Origin: Streptantibioticus rubrisoli
GTDB taxonomy: Bacteria > Actinomycetota > Actinomycetes > Streptomycetales > Streptomycetaceae
DNA: 64,000 bases
Assembly (NCBI RefSeq): GCF_024436055.1
Contig: NZ_JANFNH010000011.1
Span: 1-64,000, forward strand
Direction: 5' to 3'
Part shown: piece by piece, positions 3,239-45,235 of the stretch
Position numbering within the stretch: the stretch's first letter is position 1
Layout of the letters: every line of letters begins with the position of its first letter
Made by a program: the position numbers and the translations under genes
The notes under the pieces: generated by a model
The model's database searches: none
Told to the model about the DNA's origin: nothing
What the model saw: the letters and a program-made list of their open reading frames with translations, nothing else

Positions 3239-4063
3239 TCAGGGCGTCACGGCGAGCGAGGCCAGCACCGCGTCCGCCAGCTCCTGGTCGCCCTCCACCT
3301 TGACCCGGTCCGCGACCCCTTCCGGCCGCACCCGTCCGCAGGCCAGCCGGAGGAAGGTCTCCCAGTCGGTCGCCAACGTCACCGTGGGGCCCAGCGAGAC
3401 GCTGCTGTCGATCGTGCCGGTGCCCTCGGTGTCCACCCGCACCGTGCGCATGAACTCCACCGGGCCGTGCACGTCGAACGCCACCGTCGAACCGGCGGGC
3501 GCGCCCGCCGTCTTGGCGACCACCTTCGGCAGTTGCGGCAGCAGGAAGTCCCGGGTGACCACGGCGCCCGGCGAGTCCAGGTTGCCGGGCTTGTCCAGGG
3601 CCCGCCGGATGTCCTGTTCGTGCACCCACACGTCGAACGCCCGCATTCGCAGGGACAGTTCGAGGGTGCGCTCCGCGCCCATCAGGCCGCGCACCATGGT
3701 CTCCGGGTCGCGGTTCTCGTTCCTTAGCTGCCGGGACCGGCGGATGATCGTGTACTCCAGCTCCGCGGTCATCTCCGGCCCGGTGTGGCAGCGCCGTACG
3801 TCCACCGGCACCTCCATGTACCGGCTGAACTCGTCGGTGACGTGGAACAGGTCGCGCGGCAGCGAGTGGATGGGGCGCGGATCGCCCATCGCCTCGCACT
3901 CGACCCCGATCACATGCGAGACGACGTCCCGCACTGACCAACCCGGGCACTCTGTGGGCCGGTTCCACTCTCCCTCGGTGAGCTGCGAGACCAACTCCGA
4001 TATCGCCTCTATGGAGTGGGTCCAGGCGTCGATGTAGGGCTGGAGCTTGCTGTGGACGGTCAC
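3239..4063 (-). CDS. Maleylpyruvate isomerase-type (DinB-fold) protein
   Basis: The 274-residue protein begins with a DinB/MDMPI four-helix bundle (about residues 5-150) of the actinobacterial TIGR03083 type. It includes ECPGWSVRDVVSHVIGVE, which provides the usual metal-binding His, and a later HEQDIRRAL segment typical of mycothiol-dependent members. A C-terminal SCP2-like domain follows (about 175-270). The GTG start at 4063 has GAGGGG four bases upstream. A thiol-dependent transferase or isomerase role is likely, but the substrate is unknown. It is transcribed towards the MFS gene. Confidence 0.75.
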   Translation of the reverse strand: MTVHSKLQPYIDAWTHSIEAISELVSQLTEGEWNRPTECPGWSVRDVVSHVIGVECEAMGDPRPIHSLPRDLFHVTDEFSRYMEVPVDVRRCHTGPEMTAELEYTIIRRSRQLRNENRDPETMVRGLMGAERTLELSLRMRAFDVWVHEQDIRRALDKPGNLDSPGAVVTRDFLLPQLPKVVAKTAGAPAGSTVAFDVHGPVEFMRTVRVDTEGTGTIDSSVSLGPTVTLATDWETFLRLACGRVRPEGVADRVKVEGDQELADAVLASLAVTP

Positions 4064-4239
4064 GGTGCCCCTCGAACGGATCAGTGCGGTCGTGGCTTGT
4101 TCTGTACTGGATGGTTTCGCGCTGGCGCGCTTAATGGTGACGTGCGCCCAAATTACGCTGTGCGCTGGCACCATGGCAGTGCTTTCGTGTGACGATGGTA
4201 GGCCCGCGTTGACGCGGCGAACTTCTGGGCGGTGGTACG

Positions 4240-5037
4240 GTGCGCGCTTCGCTCCTGCAGATCGACGTCCGACCCGACGAGCGGGTCGCGGACCGGCGCT
4301 CCCGGGTGGCCGCTCTCGTACGTGAGCAAGCGGGCGCTGACCTGGTCGTTCTGCCCGAGCTGTGGCCGGTGGGCGCGTTCGCCTACCAGGACTTCGAGAC
4401 GTACGCCGAGCCGCTGGACGGCCCGACCGCCAGGGAGTTGGGCGCGGCGGCGCGGGCGGCGCGCGTCTGGCTGCACGCGGGGTCGATCGTCGAGCGCGGC
4501 GGCGCGGGCGAGCCGCTCTACAACACCTCACTGCTGTTCGCGCCGGACGGCCAACTGCACCGTTTCTACCGGAAGATCCACCGTTTCGGTTTCGACACCG
4601 GCGAGGCGACGATGATGGCCGCGGGCGACGAGATCGTTACCGCGCGGCTGTCCGGTCCCGGCACCACGATCGGTCTGGCGACCTGCTACGACCTCCGGTT
4701 CCCCGAGCAGTTCCGGCTGCTGGTGGACGCGGGGGCGGAGTTGCTGGTGATCTGCGCGGGGTGGCCTGAGCGCCGCCGCGCGCACTGGTCGCTTCTGGCG
4801 CGCGCCCGTGCGGTGGAGTCCCAGGCGTACGTGCTCGCCTGCGGGACCGCGGGGACGCACGCGGGGGTCCAGCAGGCCGGGCACAGCGTGGTGGTGGACC
4901 CGTGGGGTGAGGTCCTCGCCGAAGCGGGCTCCGGTGAGGAGGTCCTCACCGTCGACCTCGACCCGTCCCGGGTCGCCAAGACGCGCTCGGAGTTCCCCGC
5001 GCTGCGCGACCGCGTCCTGGGCCTGCCCCGGCCCTAG
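4240..5037 (+). CDS. Carbon-nitrogen (nitrilase-family) hydrolase
   Basis: The 265-residue protein shows the full Glu-Lys-Cys catalytic triad of the nitrilase superfamily: VVLPELW (Glu), YRKIHRFGF (Lys) and ATCYDLRFPEQFR (Cys). Its length matches single-domain omega-amidase/NIT-like members. It would hydrolyse an amide such as alpha-keto-glutaramate or deaminated glutathione in the cytoplasm, but the exact substrate is inference. The GTG start at 4240 has only a weak ribosome site (GGTGG), so leaderless or weak initiation is possible. It is divergent from the DinB-fold gene. Confidence 0.85.
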   Translation: MRASLLQIDVRPDERVADRRSRVAALVREQAGADLVVLPELWPVGAFAYQDFETYAEPLDGPTARELGAAARAARVWLHAGSIVERGGAGEPLYNTSLLFAPDGQLHRFYRKIHRFGFDTGEATMMAAGDEIVTARLSGPGTTIGLATCYDLRFPEQFRLLVDAGAELLVICAGWPERRRAHWSLLARARAVESQAYVLACGTAGTHAGVQQAGHSVVVDPWGEVLAEAGSGEEVLTVDLDPSRVAKTRSEFPALRDRVLGLPRP

Positions 5038-6290: not shown

Positions 6291-6533
6291 ATGGCACTAC
6301 GGTTCATCGCCAAGGACCCCAACACCAACGGGACGCAGTGCCCTACGGCTTGGGTGGACGACGAAGCGGAAGAGATCGTGATTCAGGGCTGGAAAGCGGG
6401 TGAGGTGCTGCTGGCGCGGTGCCTTGAGACGGGCCCGATCCCGGAGACCGAAGCGGTGGTGAGGGTGCCGATCCGCATGGTGCCCGCGCTGAGGGAGGCG
6501 TGCGATGTCGCAGACCGACTTGGCGTTCGTTGA
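6291..6533 (+). CDS. Small conserved hypothetical protein (partner of DUF6879 gene)
   Basis: An 80-residue acidic protein starts at ATG 6291 behind GGAGG. No domain is recognised with confidence. I recall short proteins of this appearance beside DUF6879 and XRE-DUF5753 genes in Streptomyces. Its end overlaps the next gene by 29 bases, so the pair is coupled. The 257 bases upstream hold no other gene and probably carry the promoter. Confidence 0.65.
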   Translation: MALRFIAKDPNTNGTQCPTAWVDDEAEEIVIQGWKAGEVLLARCLETGPIPETEAVVRVPIRMVPALREACDVADRLGVR

Positions 6534-7026
6534 CCTGCTGGCCAACGCCTGCCATTCGGCCGTGCACCTGGAGCTACGCGACTCGTACGGGATCGGGGAG
6601 GAGGCCGCCGAGTTCGAGAAGTGGCGCGCTGGTTGGCGTCCCGATCCCGACCCGGCGACCTGGTGGAACGACTTCCACACGTGGGTGCGTGATGCGACAG
6701 CGCGAGGGGTGGTGTTTCGTCGTGCGCGGATCGTGTCTGAGCCGGTAAGCGCGTACATCGCGTACGAGTACGGATGTACGTATCAGAACCTTGCCGCTGG
6801 TGAGTTGGTTCGCTGGCTACCGCGCCGCAAGGCATCTGACCTCGCGCTGCCTGGCAATGACTTCTGGCTGTTCGACGAGCGCGTGATCATGTGGAACCAC
6901 TTCACCGGCGAGGGTGGTTCCGCTGGACCCGAGCTGGACGAACGGCCCGGCGTGGCCAAGTTCTGCGCGACGGCGTTCGAGGCTGTGTGGGAGCGTGCCA
7001 CGCCGCACGAGGACTACCGGATCTGA
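6505..7026 (+). CDS. DUF6879-family protein
   Basis: The 173-residue protein has a Trp/Phe-rich, acidic composition (TWWNDFHTWVRDA, NDFWLFDERVIMWNHF) that matches the DUF6879 family, which is known from regulatory gene clusters of Streptomyces with XRE-DUF5753 proteins. GGGAGG lies seven bases before ATG 6505. It overlaps the preceding 80-residue gene and is followed after 10 bases by the XRE regulator. The molecular role is unknown. Members of such trios act as paired regulators in whiJ-like systems, so a partner or anti-regulator role is a guess. Confidence 0.7.
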   Translation: MSQTDLAFVDLLANACHSAVHLELRDSYGIGEEAAEFEKWRAGWRPDPDPATWWNDFHTWVRDATARGVVFRRARIVSEPVSAYIAYEYGCTYQNLAAGELVRWLPRRKASDLALPGNDFWLFDERVIMWNHFTGEGGSAGPELDERPGVAKFCATAFEAVWERATPHEDYRI

Positions 7027-7036
7027 CGAACAACAC

Positions 7037-7888
7037 ATGCCCGCGTCCCCCTCTTCGAGTGTGCAGGCTGCCCGCAAGGCCGTCGCCGACCGGCTACGGG
7101 AGATCAGGAGGGACGCGGGCCTGTCCGGCAGTGCCGTGGCCCTCAGCGCTGGTTGGTACAAGTCCAAGGTCTCTCGGCTTGAGAACGGCGTCACTCCCCC
7201 TTCCTCCGCCGATATTCAGGCGTGGTGCCGGGCTTGTGGGGCTGAGGACCAGGCCGCCGACCTGATCGCGGCTGCTCGCTCGGCGGACAACATGTATGTC
7301 GAGTGGCGGCGCGTTCAGCGCTCGGGGCTGCGGCAACTCCAGGAGTCGTACCTGCCGCTGTATGAGCGCACACGGGTCTTCCGAACGTACTGCTCCAATG
7401 TGGTCCCCGGTGTTCTCCAGACCCACGCCTACGCGATGGCACTGCTGCGGTCCATCAGCACGTTCCACGAGACACCCGACGACGTGGCCGATGCCGTAGA
7501 TGCCCGCTTGGACCGGTCGGCGCAGGTCGTGCGGAACAGCGACCACTGCTTCGCGCTCGTGCTGGAAGAGTCGGTGTTGCGGCACCGTGTAGGGGACGCT
7601 GAGACGATGGCTGGGCAGCTTGGCTATCTGTTGGCCGCGATGGCGTTCCCGTCCGTCTCGCTCGGGGTGATTCCGTTCGCTGCCGAGCGCCGCATGTGGA
7701 TGATCGAGACGTTCACGGTCTACGACGAGGAGCAGGCCGAAGCGGAGTTGCTGACAGCGCGGGTGAACGTGACCACGCCGACCGAGGTGCAGCAGTACCT
7801 CAAGGCGTTCCGCGAGTTCGCCAAGCTGGCCGTCTACGGGGCCGATGCGCGTGCGCTGATCACGGCTGCTATCGACTCTTTGGGGTGA
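7037..7888 (+). CDS. XRE-family regulator with DUF5753 domain
   Basis: The 283-residue protein has an N-terminal helix-turn-helix (about residues 12-70, including LSGSAVALSAGWYKSKVSRL) and a C-terminal DUF5753 ligand-binding-like domain (about 95-280, including YERTRVFRTYCSNVVPGVLQT). This is the WhiJ/Scr1-type architecture that is abundant in Streptomyces. It probably binds the repeat-containing intergenic region just downstream (7889-7977) and so controls the peptide/methyltransferase genes, which is inference from position. Confidence 0.85.
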   Translation: MPASPSSSVQAARKAVADRLREIRRDAGLSGSAVALSAGWYKSKVSRLENGVTPPSSADIQAWCRACGAEDQAADLIAAARSADNMYVEWRRVQRSGLRQLQESYLPLYERTRVFRTYCSNVVPGVLQTHAYAMALLRSISTFHETPDDVADAVDARLDRSAQVVRNSDHCFALVLEESVLRHRVGDAETMAGQLGYLLAAMAFPSVSLGVIPFAAERRMWMIETFTVYDEEQAEAELLTARVNVTTPTEVQQYLKAFREFAKLAVYGADARALITAAIDSLG

Positions 7889-7977: not shown

Positions 7978-8178
7978 ATGACCGAGCCGACGAGATACCA
8001 GACAGCCCCGGTCGAGTTGCCCTTGCGCTTGGACCTGCGGGAGCCGACGCCCGTTGACGGTTGCCCAGGGTGTGTCGAGCTAGTGAAGGTGCGGGAGCGC
8101 GCCCGCGCGGGCGGGGACATGACCACCGTGACCGATTGCAACGTCTACATGCGACGGCACCCGGAGGGGCACGGATGA
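7978..8178 (+). CDS. Small hypothetical protein
   Basis: A 66-residue soluble protein with a CPGC pair near its middle and a lone Cys later. It is the first gene after the repeat-containing promoter and overlaps the next start by ATGA, so it belongs to the peptide/methyltransferase operon. No function is recognised. GAGGGGAT lies just before ATG 7978. Confidence 0.6.
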   Translation: MTEPTRYQTAPVELPLRLDLREPTPVDGCPGCVELVKVRERARAGGDMTTVTDCNVYMRRHPEGHG

Positions 8179-8420
8179 GCACGCGCACCATATTTCGGTA
8201 CGTGCGGCACACGCTCCGGCACGTCCCAGAGGGCGGGATCACGTACGAAGCTTTCTGTGTCACGCACCGCTGTGATGAGGGCTCCGGCCCGCAGGAAGAG
8301 CAGGAAGCGGCACAGGACTGGTGCCTACGGCACACCGGGCGTACCGGTCATGACCTGTTTCGGCGCGTCTTCACGGACCATGCGCGGGTCGCCCGTCAGG
8401 CCGACGTTCGGCACTCCTGA
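8175..8420 (+). CDS. DUF7848-like small protein
   Basis: The 81-residue protein contains a FCVTHRC...DWCLRHTGRTGHDLF pattern with Cys and His residues that look like a small zinc-binding fold. It resembles the DUF7848 family of short Streptomyces proteins. It is coupled to the preceding gene by ATGA, and 96 bases separate it from the putative precursor peptide. The role is unknown; a chaperone or regulatory role in the operon is possible. Confidence 0.6.
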   Translation: MSTRTIFRYVRHTLRHVPEGGITYEAFCVTHRCDEGSGPQEEQEAAQDWCLRHTGRTGHDLFRRVFTDHARVARQADVRHS

Positions 8421-8516
8421 CACCCAAGCCCCCGTTCCGGCGCGCACTCCACTCTTGGACAGGTCGAGCGCCCGCAGCGGGTTCTTTGAGCAGTACCCAC
8501 ACAGGGAGGGAACCAC

Positions 8517-8657
8517 ATGAATCAGTGGTGGACGACCAGGGCGACCGGCGGAGGGAACCCGCAGGATGACAGCGACTCCAGTAACAAGCATGGCGGGGGC
8601 GGTTCCGACGAGGGTGGCAACACCAACGACGGCCAGGGCCCGGCGGACGGTAGGTAA
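8517..8657 (+). CDS. Putative RiPP precursor peptide (46 aa, Gly/Asp/Asn-rich)
   Basis: A strong ribosome site (AGGGAGG) precedes ATG 8517, and the TAA abuts the GTG of the methyltransferase gene with no gap. The peptide starts MNQWWTTRATGGGNPQ and continues with a Gly/Ser/Asp/Asn-rich tail that contains two Asp-Gly pairs (residues 38-39 and 44-45) and ends PADGR. Asp-Gly is the dipeptide most prone to aspartimide formation. The small size, low complexity and tight linkage to a protein-isoaspartate-methyltransferase homologue fit a precursor for an aspartimide-type RiPP. The peptide is not an obvious family match; the substrate role is inference. Confidence 0.6.
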   Translation: MNQWWTTRATGGGNPQDDSDSSNKHGGGGSDEGGNTNDGQGPADGR

Positions 8658-9836
8658 GTGAGCACACAGCACGAGGCGGAGGCTGGCCCCGAGCGGCTGG
8701 CCTCCGCGCTGATCGAAAACGGCGCGCTGACGAGCGACTGGCTTCCCGCCTTCCAGGCCGTGCCCCGGTATCTGTTCGTGCCGGACACCATTTGGCCGGG
8801 GCGCGGAGGTATGAACAGGCAGAGTGATCGCGTCATCCGGGCGGACGACCCGGAGCTGTGGTGGAGGGCCGTCTACACGGACGCGCCGATCACCACCCAA
8901 TGGGACGACGGCGCGTATACCGGTCCAGGGAAGGGTCAGACCCCCTCGTCGTCCAACTCCATGCCCACCATGGTCTTTTCGATGCTGGACGCGCTCAGTG
9001 TGGAGCCGGGGAACCGGGTGTTGGAGATCGGCACGGGTACCGGCTGGAATGCCGCGCTGCTCTCGCACCGGTTGGGCGCTGAGAACGTCGTCACGGTGGA
9101 GGTGGATGAGGCCAGCGCGAGAGACGCGCGGGCACGTCTGAACGCAGCGGGGTTCGATCCGCTGGCGGTTGTCGGCGATGGCGCGAAGGGGTACCCGGAG
9201 GGCGCACCGTATGACCGGGTGATCGCTACCTGCTCGATCGGCAGCGTCCCGCGAGAGTGGATCGAGCAGACCACGCCGGGCGGGGTGATCGTCGCTCCGT
9301 GGGGGCCGACCTACGGCGGGGAAGCGGTCGTACGTCTCACCGTCGCTGGGGACGGCACGGCGTCCGGTCCGTTCGTGGGCTCCTCGGCGTTCATGCGGCT
9401 GCGCGCCCAGCGCAAGGACCTGCCTTCGACCCAGGCGTACCTGGGCGGCATGGAATGGCCCGCCGACGGCGCCAAGAGCATGACGACGCTCTCACCGGAC
9501 GACGTGGGCGACTGGATCCACATGTTCGCGATAGGCGTTCAGGTCCCGGGGCTGTTCTGCCGGGTGCGTTGGGGGGCGGACGGCGCGTACCGCCTGTGGC
9601 TGCATGACACCGACGTGACCTCGTGGGCGACAGCGGACTACGAGAAGGGGCGGACGCGGTACGAGGTCATGCAGTCCGGCCGCCGGAACCTGTGGGATGA
9701 GCTGGAGGCGGCTTGGCGCTGGTGGGACCGGCAAGGACAGCCCGGGTTCGAACGGTTCGGGCTCACGGTGTCAGGGCAAGGGCACACGATCTGGCTGGAC
9801 AGCCCCAGGAACCGCGTACCCACCTTCCCCCGATGA
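8658..9836 (+). CDS. Protein-L-isoaspartate O-methyltransferase-like RiPP methyltransferase
   Basis: The 392-residue protein has a PIMT-like core. Residues 100-120 carry PTMVFSMLDAL, then SAM motif I LEIGTGTGWNAALL (about 116-129), an acidic post-I loop (VTVEVDEASA) and the motif AATCSIGSVP-type segment RVIATCSIGSVPREW. A C-terminal extension of about 150 residues is absent from housekeeping PIMTs. This layout matches the TgmC/TIGR04188 class of maturase-associated methyltransferases. No ATP-grasp ligase is encoded nearby, so methylation of a precursor Asp followed by imide closure (imiditide type) is the more likely chemistry. The gene is read from the same transcript as the 46-residue peptide. 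Confidence 0.8.
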   Translation: MSTQHEAEAGPERLASALIENGALTSDWLPAFQAVPRYLFVPDTIWPGRGGMNRQSDRVIRADDPELWWRAVYTDAPITTQWDDGAYTGPGKGQTPSSSNSMPTMVFSMLDALSVEPGNRVLEIGTGTGWNAALLSHRLGAENVVTVEVDEASARDARARLNAAGFDPLAVVGDGAKGYPEGAPYDRVIATCSIGSVPREWIEQTTPGGVIVAPWGPTYGGEAVVRLTVAGDGTASGPFVGSSAFMRLRAQRKDLPSTQAYLGGMEWPADGAKSMTTLSPDDVGDWIHMFAIGVQVPGLFCRVRWGADGAYRLWLHDTDVTSWATADYEKGRTRYEVMQSGRRNLWDELEAAWRWWDRQGQPGFERFGLTVSGQGHTIWLDSPRNRVPTFPR

Positions 9837-45148: not shown

Positions 45149-45235
45149 GGAGAGTTGCCCGAGCGGCCTAAGGGAACGGTCTTGAAAACCGTCGTGGCAG
45201 CGATGTCACCGTGGGTTCAAATCCCACACTCTCCG
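45149..45235 (+). tRNA. tRNA-Ser(UGA)
   Basis: 87 nt fold as a class II tRNA. The acceptor stem is GGAGAGT/ACTCTCC, the anticodon stem ACGGT/ACCGT encloses loop CTTGAAA (anticodon TGA at 45183-45185), and there is a long variable arm, a T arm with GTTCAAATC and discriminator G. CCA is not encoded. Its 3' half is the attachment site of the AICE; integration leaves the gene intact. Confidence 0.97.

Follow-up and report, generated by a model that had tools for sequence, protein, structure and literature searches.

Does a short peptide gene that runs directly into a methyltransferase gene in the DNA of Streptantibioticus rubrisoli specify a RiPP, and if so, of which kind and modified at which residue? 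The locus lies in a contiguous stretch of 64 kb, here called the window, and its features are collected in Table 1. The preliminary description had a 46-residue peptide with two Asp-Gly pairs ending exactly where a PIMT-like methyltransferase begins, and the sequence bears this out: the GTG of the methyltransferase gene starts at the base directly after the stop codon of the peptide gene. Ahead of 53 of 71 homologous peptide genes, GGAG or GAGG is found at the spot equivalent to that of the Shine-Dalgarno-like sequence in the window. The window peptide is acidic (three Lys or Arg versus seven Asp or Glu residues) and is without a match in Pfam, NCBIfam, PHROG and PADLOC.

Table 1 Features of the locus, with positions in the window
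Feature	Position	Strand	Remark
DUF6879 protein gene	6505-7026	+	Pfam
XRE/DUF5753 regulator gene, upstream	6914-7888	+	HTH_31 and DUF5753; true start probably downstream of 6914
Shine-Dalgarno-like AGGGAGGG before the peptide gene	8503-8510	+	sequence; good to strong match
Precursor peptide gene	8517-8657	+	ATG start, 46 aa, stop TAA 8655-8657
24-aa near-invariant core, QDDSDSSNKHGGGGSDEGGNTNDG in the window	8562-8633	+	67 gap-free copies
Asp38-Gly39, predicted aspartimide/isoaspartate site (DGxxP motif)	8628-8633	+	conservation
Asp44-Gly45, less conserved, probably not the site	8646-8651	+	conservation
PIMT-homologous peptide aspartyl O-methyltransferase (PAMT-like) gene	8658-9836	+	GTG start at 8658, 392 aa
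EIGTGTGWN, presumed SAM-binding motif, enzyme residues 123-131	9024-9050	+	
WxxxGxP motif, WDRQGQP, enzyme residues 356-362	9723-9743	+	

A genome collection (62 loci) and 200 Streptomycetaceae genomes (30 loci cut out) supplied relatives of the enzyme. After exclusion of two partial matches (L069 and L070) and of a locus that is the window again (L071), addition of the window itself and removal of 15 duplicates, 75 distinct loci were left, some of which come from close strains, so that they are not fully independent. The peptide lies directly upstream of the enzyme in 71 of the 75, window included, and its stop codon falls in an interval from 13 bases ahead of the extrapolated enzyme start to 6 bases beyond it; among these 71, the copy in L097 is degenerate. 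The other four loci are L044 and L060, where the enzyme is 66 and 64% identical and no such peptide occurs, L098, where the match begins at residue 30, and L067 (enzyme identity 48%), where a Pro-rich peptide stands in place of the acidic one. When matches were paired by coordinates in the 200 Streptomycetaceae genomes, 30 of which, including the organism's own, have matches, all 34 peptide matches adjoined an enzyme match. Among the enzyme matches listed with at least 56% identity, 34 of 40 have a matched peptide; the six without one are G146, G184, G154 (degenerate), G147 and G042 (variant peptide) and G014, the last being a partial, broken enzyme copy. A class-wide sample yielded the peptide in 3 of 394 genomes, the window's own among them, all three belonging to Streptomycetaceae.

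That the open reading frame arose by chance is ruled out, because the same peptide recurs with the enzyme at these loci and evolves as a coding sequence. Across 67 gap-free copies of its 24-codon core, pN is 0.10 and pS is 0.41, and the core is under purifying selection. Both genes are thus real, linked and conserved. The 67 copies were chosen by the pattern of the core itself, L011, L022, L061 and L097 being unmatched and dropped, which favors high conservation in the core comparison; their mean identity is 0.898 over 2211 pairs. For pairs with enzyme identity below 75%, the cores average 89% and the enzymes 61%, and core identity is the higher of the two in all 2028 pairs. When whole peptides from all 71 rows are compared at the same enzyme identity, the peptide is more alike in 2094 of 2282 pairs, with means of 72% for the peptides and 61% for the enzymes. 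The variable part of the peptide is its N-terminus. RiPPs commonly combine a conserved leader with a variable core, the opposite of the pattern found here.

The two Asp-Gly pairs had been given equal standing in the preliminary description. Both are present in the window, but they are not equally conserved: the first lies in an [NS]DGxxP motif present in 69 of 71 peptides, whereas the second is kept in 48 of those 69. Among 23 loci with enzymes 43-53% identical to that of the window, 21 have a precursor upstream, e.g., ..LPGTPWTPPEPSPDGGSPEGDGKHRK or ..GPKPNPDGQGPTPDPKHK (L116 and L124 have no clear one), and in 19 of these 21 precursors a DGxxP aligns with that of the peptide. The first DG is also retained in natural variants that have lost the middle of the core (L011) or its start (L022) or that end after GPA (L034), and in the peptides of phages, which end in ..GGNSSDGSGPSKK or ..SSDGSGPAK and have no second DG. 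Because the shared DGxxP, the natural deletions and the phage peptides all keep the first DG, we predict Asp38-Gly39 rather than Asp44-Gly45 as the conserved site; the second pair is disfavored by its weaker conservation. The exceptions are L061, L132 and L133, with DSGHSD near the position where others have GN[TS][NS]DG, and L137, with DGQGL. The first three make up a variant subfamily with DSGHSD[TN], in which the modified Asp may precede Thr or Asn. Taken together, the in-frame deletions of L011 and L022 and the truncation of L034 amount to a natural deletion map of the peptide.

In the enzyme, the Pfam domain PCMT spans residues 81-225 (102 bits). Some 165 residues follow it, and the C-terminal extension, earlier put at about 150 residues, is therefore real; in an AlphaFold2 model with a mean pLDDT of 89.6, a C-terminal region of more than 100 aa is mostly confidently folded. 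The best match in the PDB is the PIMT of Thermotoga maritima (1dl5; E 7.9e-20), aligned near full length at an rmsd of 8 Å. The enzyme thus shares its catalytic domain with canonical PIMT repair enzymes such as 1DL5 and is unlike them in having a dedicated upstream peptide and a C-terminal domain that is matched only within this full-length 8 Å alignment. Within EIGTGTGWN, which we take to be the SAM-binding motif, G125, G127 and G129 are invariant in the aligned homologs. The WxxxGxP motif, found in 67 of the 75 loci, window included, is described for RiPP-associated PIMT homologs in the accessible text of a 2026 review (PMC13001092). It is missing in eight loci, one of them frameshifted (L063) and the others having Asp, Glu or Lys for Gly, and also in five phage enzymes, two of which were read out and have Ser in place of Gly. 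A defence library gave weak matches only, to mad2 (methyltransferase domain) and HTH_VI (regulator).

The best NCBIfam match of the enzyme is TIGR04188, the graspetide methyltransferase family, at 331.9 bits and below the cut-off of 380, and TIGR04364, the methyltransferase of FxLD lanthipeptides, reaches 117.4 bits against a cut-off of 320. A phylogenetic tree of 65 picked rows, including four of the five phages, was computed by a quick method with SH-aLRT support only and rooted on graspetide enzymes. The enzymes with acidic peptides form a branch of 38 rows (SH-aLRT 99), with the phage enzymes inside it, that is sister to a branch of enzymes with Pro-rich precursors (19 rows, SH-aLRT 100), which are on average 47% identical to the window's enzyme. 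Four enzymes with KPGG-type precursors lie outside both branches and are not recovered as one clade. The acidic, Pro-rich and KPGG rows, 61 in all, are split with an SH-aLRT of 99 from four other enzymes of the same genome, namely two graspetide ones, 38 and 34% identical to the window's, and those on contigs C41 and C82; because of long branches, the placement of these four is unsure. The C41 and C82 genes (C41:33360-34391 and C82:52738-53817) encode TIGR04188-like methyltransferases with no obvious upstream precursor and no TIGR04187 match on the same contigs.

The preliminary description reported no ligase or cyclase gene in the window. For the graspetide ATP-grasp family (TIGR04187) the statement holds window-wide, as no match was found in the 64 kb; for cyclases it covers 18 neighboring ORFs within 49-22723, which are part of the genes there and some of which are probably not genes, and none of these has a Pfam match to lanthipeptide, lasso or YcaO enzymes. 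Elsewhere in the genome TIGR04187 has three matches, on contigs C17, C61 and C16. The ATP-grasp genes on C17 and C61 each adjoin a methyltransferase gene of their own; the C16 gene (429427-430350) encodes a TIGR04187-like protein of 329 bits, below the cut-off, with no homologous methyltransferase in the flanks examined. A tblastn search with the genome's own three ATP-grasp proteins found none at the peptide loci, where the flanks available measured 1.5-6 kb, or less near contig ends. Homologs of the enzyme are hence not always accompanied by an ATP-grasp gene and do mostly carry the short upstream gene, so that the neighborhood outcome named at the outset as refuting did not occur. Of 30 other unit-bearing genomes tested, 27 have a TIGR04187 match somewhere and three have none.

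These data bear on whether the unit is a graspetide remnant, in which the ATP-grasp enzyme encoded on C17, C61 or C16 would first make ester or amide rings and the methyltransferase would act second. The TIGR04188 match, the three ATP-grasp matches of the genome and those in 27 of the 30 other genomes would all agree with such an origin. We nevertheless regard it as very improbable, since the TIGR04188 score is under the cut-off, the genome's own graspetide enzymes fall outside the branch, the C17 and C61 genes are already provided with methyltransferases, no peptide locus has an ATP-grasp gene in the flanks searched, three genomes have the unit and no TIGR04187 match, and the phage stretches examined hold only the pair. 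The Group 13 graspetide methyltransferases (TIGR04188, tgmC, SsfM/AmdM) do share the architecture of PIMT plus C-terminal domain; the window enzyme differs in having no ATP-grasp partner and in standing outside their branch, and on these grounds together with the sub-threshold score the graspetide assignment was rejected. The FxLD lanthipeptide assignment was rejected as well: the catalytic core is homologous, but TIGR04364 is far below its cut-off and no lanthipeptide enzyme occurs among the 18 neighboring ORFs scanned.

Flanks of up to 4 kb were surveyed at 61 loci. An XRE/DUF5753 regulator cluster occurs in 27 and a DUF6879 cluster in 24, both frequent and not constant, and a second HTH family occurs in 14; apart from the pair itself, regulators and DUF6879 alone exceed 6 of the 61 loci, and within these flanks the idea of a larger conserved cluster was rejected. 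No RiPP enzyme was recognized among the recurrent neighbor clusters, one member of each being examined, and the highest recurrence seen for any transporter or protease was 4 of the 61 loci. A POT-family peptide transporter (L046, L048, L050 and L060) and an S9 peptidase (L048, L050, L060 and L065) each occur in four, on the opposite strand and 1.2-4.5 kb downstream; the two sets of loci overlap, and a gene order common to these chromosomes appears to account for the recurrence. Between the XRE regulator and the peptide in the window (7978-8420) are a 66-aa ORF without a Pfam match, which has weak relatives in L027, L029 and L102, and a DUF7848 protein. A thioredoxin/NHL gene follows the unit in the window and also in Kitasatospora aureofaciens (L068, with a copy in L077; 81-82% identical) and was not found at the other related loci compared; the unit has therefore changed places.

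The peptide might alternatively be a partner or regulator of the enzyme (an activator, an inhibitor or a reporter of Asp damage) that is not itself matured, the enzyme repairing isoAsp in other proteins. Its relation to PIMT, a peptide core that hardly varies, unlike many RiPP cores, and the lack of any widely recurring exporter or protease in the flanks surveyed would suit that role, and Asp-Gly is a site of spontaneous isomerization. However, the C-terminal extension and WxxxGxP are typical of RiPP-associated enzymes, its sister enzymes belong to a kind that, as published, modifies its own precursor, and the genome has a shorter PIMT-like match elsewhere, a 220-aa frame on C15. We consider this explanation unlikely.

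A substrate role for the peptide agrees with what is published on two-gene units. In the accessible text of PMC10787088, 1539 PAMTs are reported in two-gene clusters, so the imide, which the preliminary description offered as the class-defining modification, belongs to a class that is already published; the name MihA/MihM that it used does not appear in the accessible text of the 2026 review, which has NmaA/NmaM, a pair of Nonomuraea maritima (PMC13001092). Type I precursors are described as about 45 aa long with 17.3% Gly, 16.8% Pro and 10.2% Asp and several conservation patterns, most having a conserved acidic N-terminus and a basic C-terminus, and SpaM modifies linear SpaA (PMC10787088). 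An acidic loop of the enzyme helps bind the precursor (PMC13001092). The Pro-rich sister group, with 20% Gly, 19.8% Pro and 13% Asp in the 13 precursors counted, most of which end in GKHRK, fits the type I pamtides/imiditides as far as their published description goes. The expectation of an imiditide-type two-gene system without ATP-grasp was therefore well placed, as the closest relatives are units with Pro/Gly/Asp-rich, type I-like precursors.

Like the type I systems SpaA-SpaM and NmaA-NmaM, the pair is a two-gene unit with a precursor some 45 aa long in which one Asp adjoining Gly/Pro is conserved, a PIMT homolog with a C-terminal domain and no other primary modifying enzyme. Unlike them, the acidic subgroup has a near-invariant core, occurs also on phages, and averages 30.7% Gly, 13.1% Asp and 4.6% Pro, the last against the published 16.8%. 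Its net charge ranges from -9 to 0, its N-terminus is not acidic, and there is no basic C-terminal cluster, with 57 of 69 peptides ending in a single Lys or Arg. The type II pamtides/cysimiditides (FcaA-FcaM) share the two-gene logic and the same published chemistry, whereas the window peptide has no Cys and hence no CxxCxGxG zinc motif. In the flanks and families scanned, the two-gene unit comprises a precursor and a PIMT homolog and no known primary RiPP enzyme, the arrangement that characterizes the class. Since the Pro content differs, the charged ends agree only in part and the modification is predicted, we call membership of the pamtide/imiditide class likely. The class itself being known, what is new is a subgroup that is acidic and poor in Pro and whose core hardly varies, together with the presence of the complete pair on phages and in a prophage-like region.

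On the basis of these comparisons we think it probable that the two genes form a RiPP unit that belongs with the type I pamtides/imiditides, as part of the acidic, Pro-poor subgroup, and convert Asp38 by way of a methyl ester to aspartimide or isoaspartate. The methyltransferase would bind the linear peptide and methylate the Asp38 side chain with SAM as the donor; attack of the Gly39 backbone amide on the ester would then release methanol and give an aspartimide, which might persist or open to isoaspartate or aspartate. We infer that the enzyme acts on this peptide, that Asp38 is where the chemistry takes place and that the active product corresponds to the near-invariant C-terminal part. The Gly after Asp38 would leave an imide open to water. 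For the class, a gain of 14 Da followed by a loss of 18 Da and trapping by hydrazine are described at the conserved Asp of SpaA in the accessible text of PMC10787088 and PMC13001092. There, SpaA co-expressed with SpaM is mainly of unchanged mass, so that isoAsp may be the final state, and type II FcaA is shown to carry isoAsp (PMC10787088). An evenly balanced variant of the main reading is accordingly that the chemistry is that of type I pamtides and the product is isoaspartyl, or an Asp mixture, with the aspartimide as an intermediate only, and 'imiditide' would then be the wrong word. NmaA, which keeps partial aspartimide after 40 h, is a counterexample, although its Asp is followed by His (PMC13001092).

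The window enzyme matches the PHROG family phrog_13505 (490.7 bits), which leads to eight phage records for five phages, PapayaSalad, Alderaan, Austintatious, Bioscum and Ididsumtinwong, all Austintatiousvirus with S. venezuelae ATCC 10712 as host. The phage enzymes (L148-L152) are 58-59% identical to that of the window, and the pair, whose members carry the annotations hypothetical protein and (O-)methyltransferase, occupies about 3280-4685 in each locus. Eight bases before each enzyme ends a 'hypothetical protein' of 47-70 aa, the last 47-48 residues of which are the peptide; tblastn with the peptide gave no match in phages, probably through the low-complexity filter, and the phage peptides were read from the DNA. 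An enzyme of the Pro-rich group as query retrieved the same eight records and no other phage. The pair sits between a repressor-like regulator gene and holin/endolysin genes, and the interval between regulator and lysis genes is the usual place of lysogenic-conversion genes. Three of the five phage records have a tRNA-Arg or tRNA-Leu annotation just upstream, where ARAGORN finds none. Alderaan, which retains the pair, is predicted to be temperate; its authors find no integrase and consider a possible turn to a lytic life, as stated in the accessible text of PMC7650747.

A piece of a 35.8-kb viral contig (L145) carries genes for a serine recombinase (48% to the Bioscum integrase), an HTH protein, the peptide, the enzyme, a holin-like protein (74% identical to that of the phages) and a GH25 lysin. 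From base 1131 on, its sequence coincides with DNA of Streptomyces albus NRRL B-1811 (L042); before this base, where L145 has its recombinase, the two differ. Judged by lysis and tail genes, the S. albus copy appears prophage-like, an integrase not being seen in L042. Base 1131, beside the recombinase of L145, is a possible integration boundary or point of integrase exchange. The pair is also carried by a linear Streptomyces plasmid (L153; NZ_CP108097.1, 5849-7155; enzyme identity 76.6%), where a gene with the annotation enediyne antibiotic chromoprotein lies about 4 kb away. The window region shows no sign of being a prophage: the scanned neighbors are mostly metabolic, transport and regulator genes, and the only tRNA in the window is at 45149.

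Two further viral contigs hold related arrangements. In a 63-kb contig (IMGVR_UViG_3300046459_000539; L157, 4985-7107), an ATP-grasp gene whose product is 69% identical to one graspetide enzyme of the S. rubrisoli genome is directly followed by a homologous methyltransferase gene, possibly a phage-borne graspetide pair. In another (L146), a single methyltransferase comes after two Pro-rich, type I-like precursors in succession, at about 3600-4000.

The unit occurs in varied chromosomal contexts, and also on a linear plasmid, on phages and within a prophage-like region. It thus has the behavior of a cassette, as would suit a trait useful to the host and shared by temperate phages. Given so constant a core, the product is more easily seen as a conserved signal or immunity peptide than as a variable antimicrobial. 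More tentatively, the pair may be a phage-carried lysogenic-conversion cassette: temperate Streptomyces phages would introduce a RiPP whose near-invariant peptide, as aspartimide or isoaspartate, serves as a conserved signal or immunity factor, with the chromosomal copies as domesticated descendants; we see this as possible and the less probable outcome. Such a peptide might control superinfection, let lysogens communicate or adjust the development of the host. The open-licence PMC literature, searched by titles and abstract openings, yielded no description of the pair on a phage, supplements possibly listing the subgroup, and the words phage, prophage, bacteriophage and virus are absent from the accessible text of the class papers (PMC10787088, PMC13001092).

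If the lysogenic-conversion proposal were true, this would be, within the literature searched, the first pamtide-type RiPP reported on phages, and the constancy of the peptide would be a handle on what RiPP aspartimides are for; effort on linking the aspartimide to bioactivities is called for in the 2026 review (PMC13001092, accessible text). Since phages with an intact pair have been isolated on S. venezuelae, a standard laboratory host, the effect of a pamtide could be probed in a compact genetic system by deleting two genes. Across the Streptomycetaceae, a 24-residue core that barely varies beside enzymes of about 61% identity suggests a specific, lasting function.
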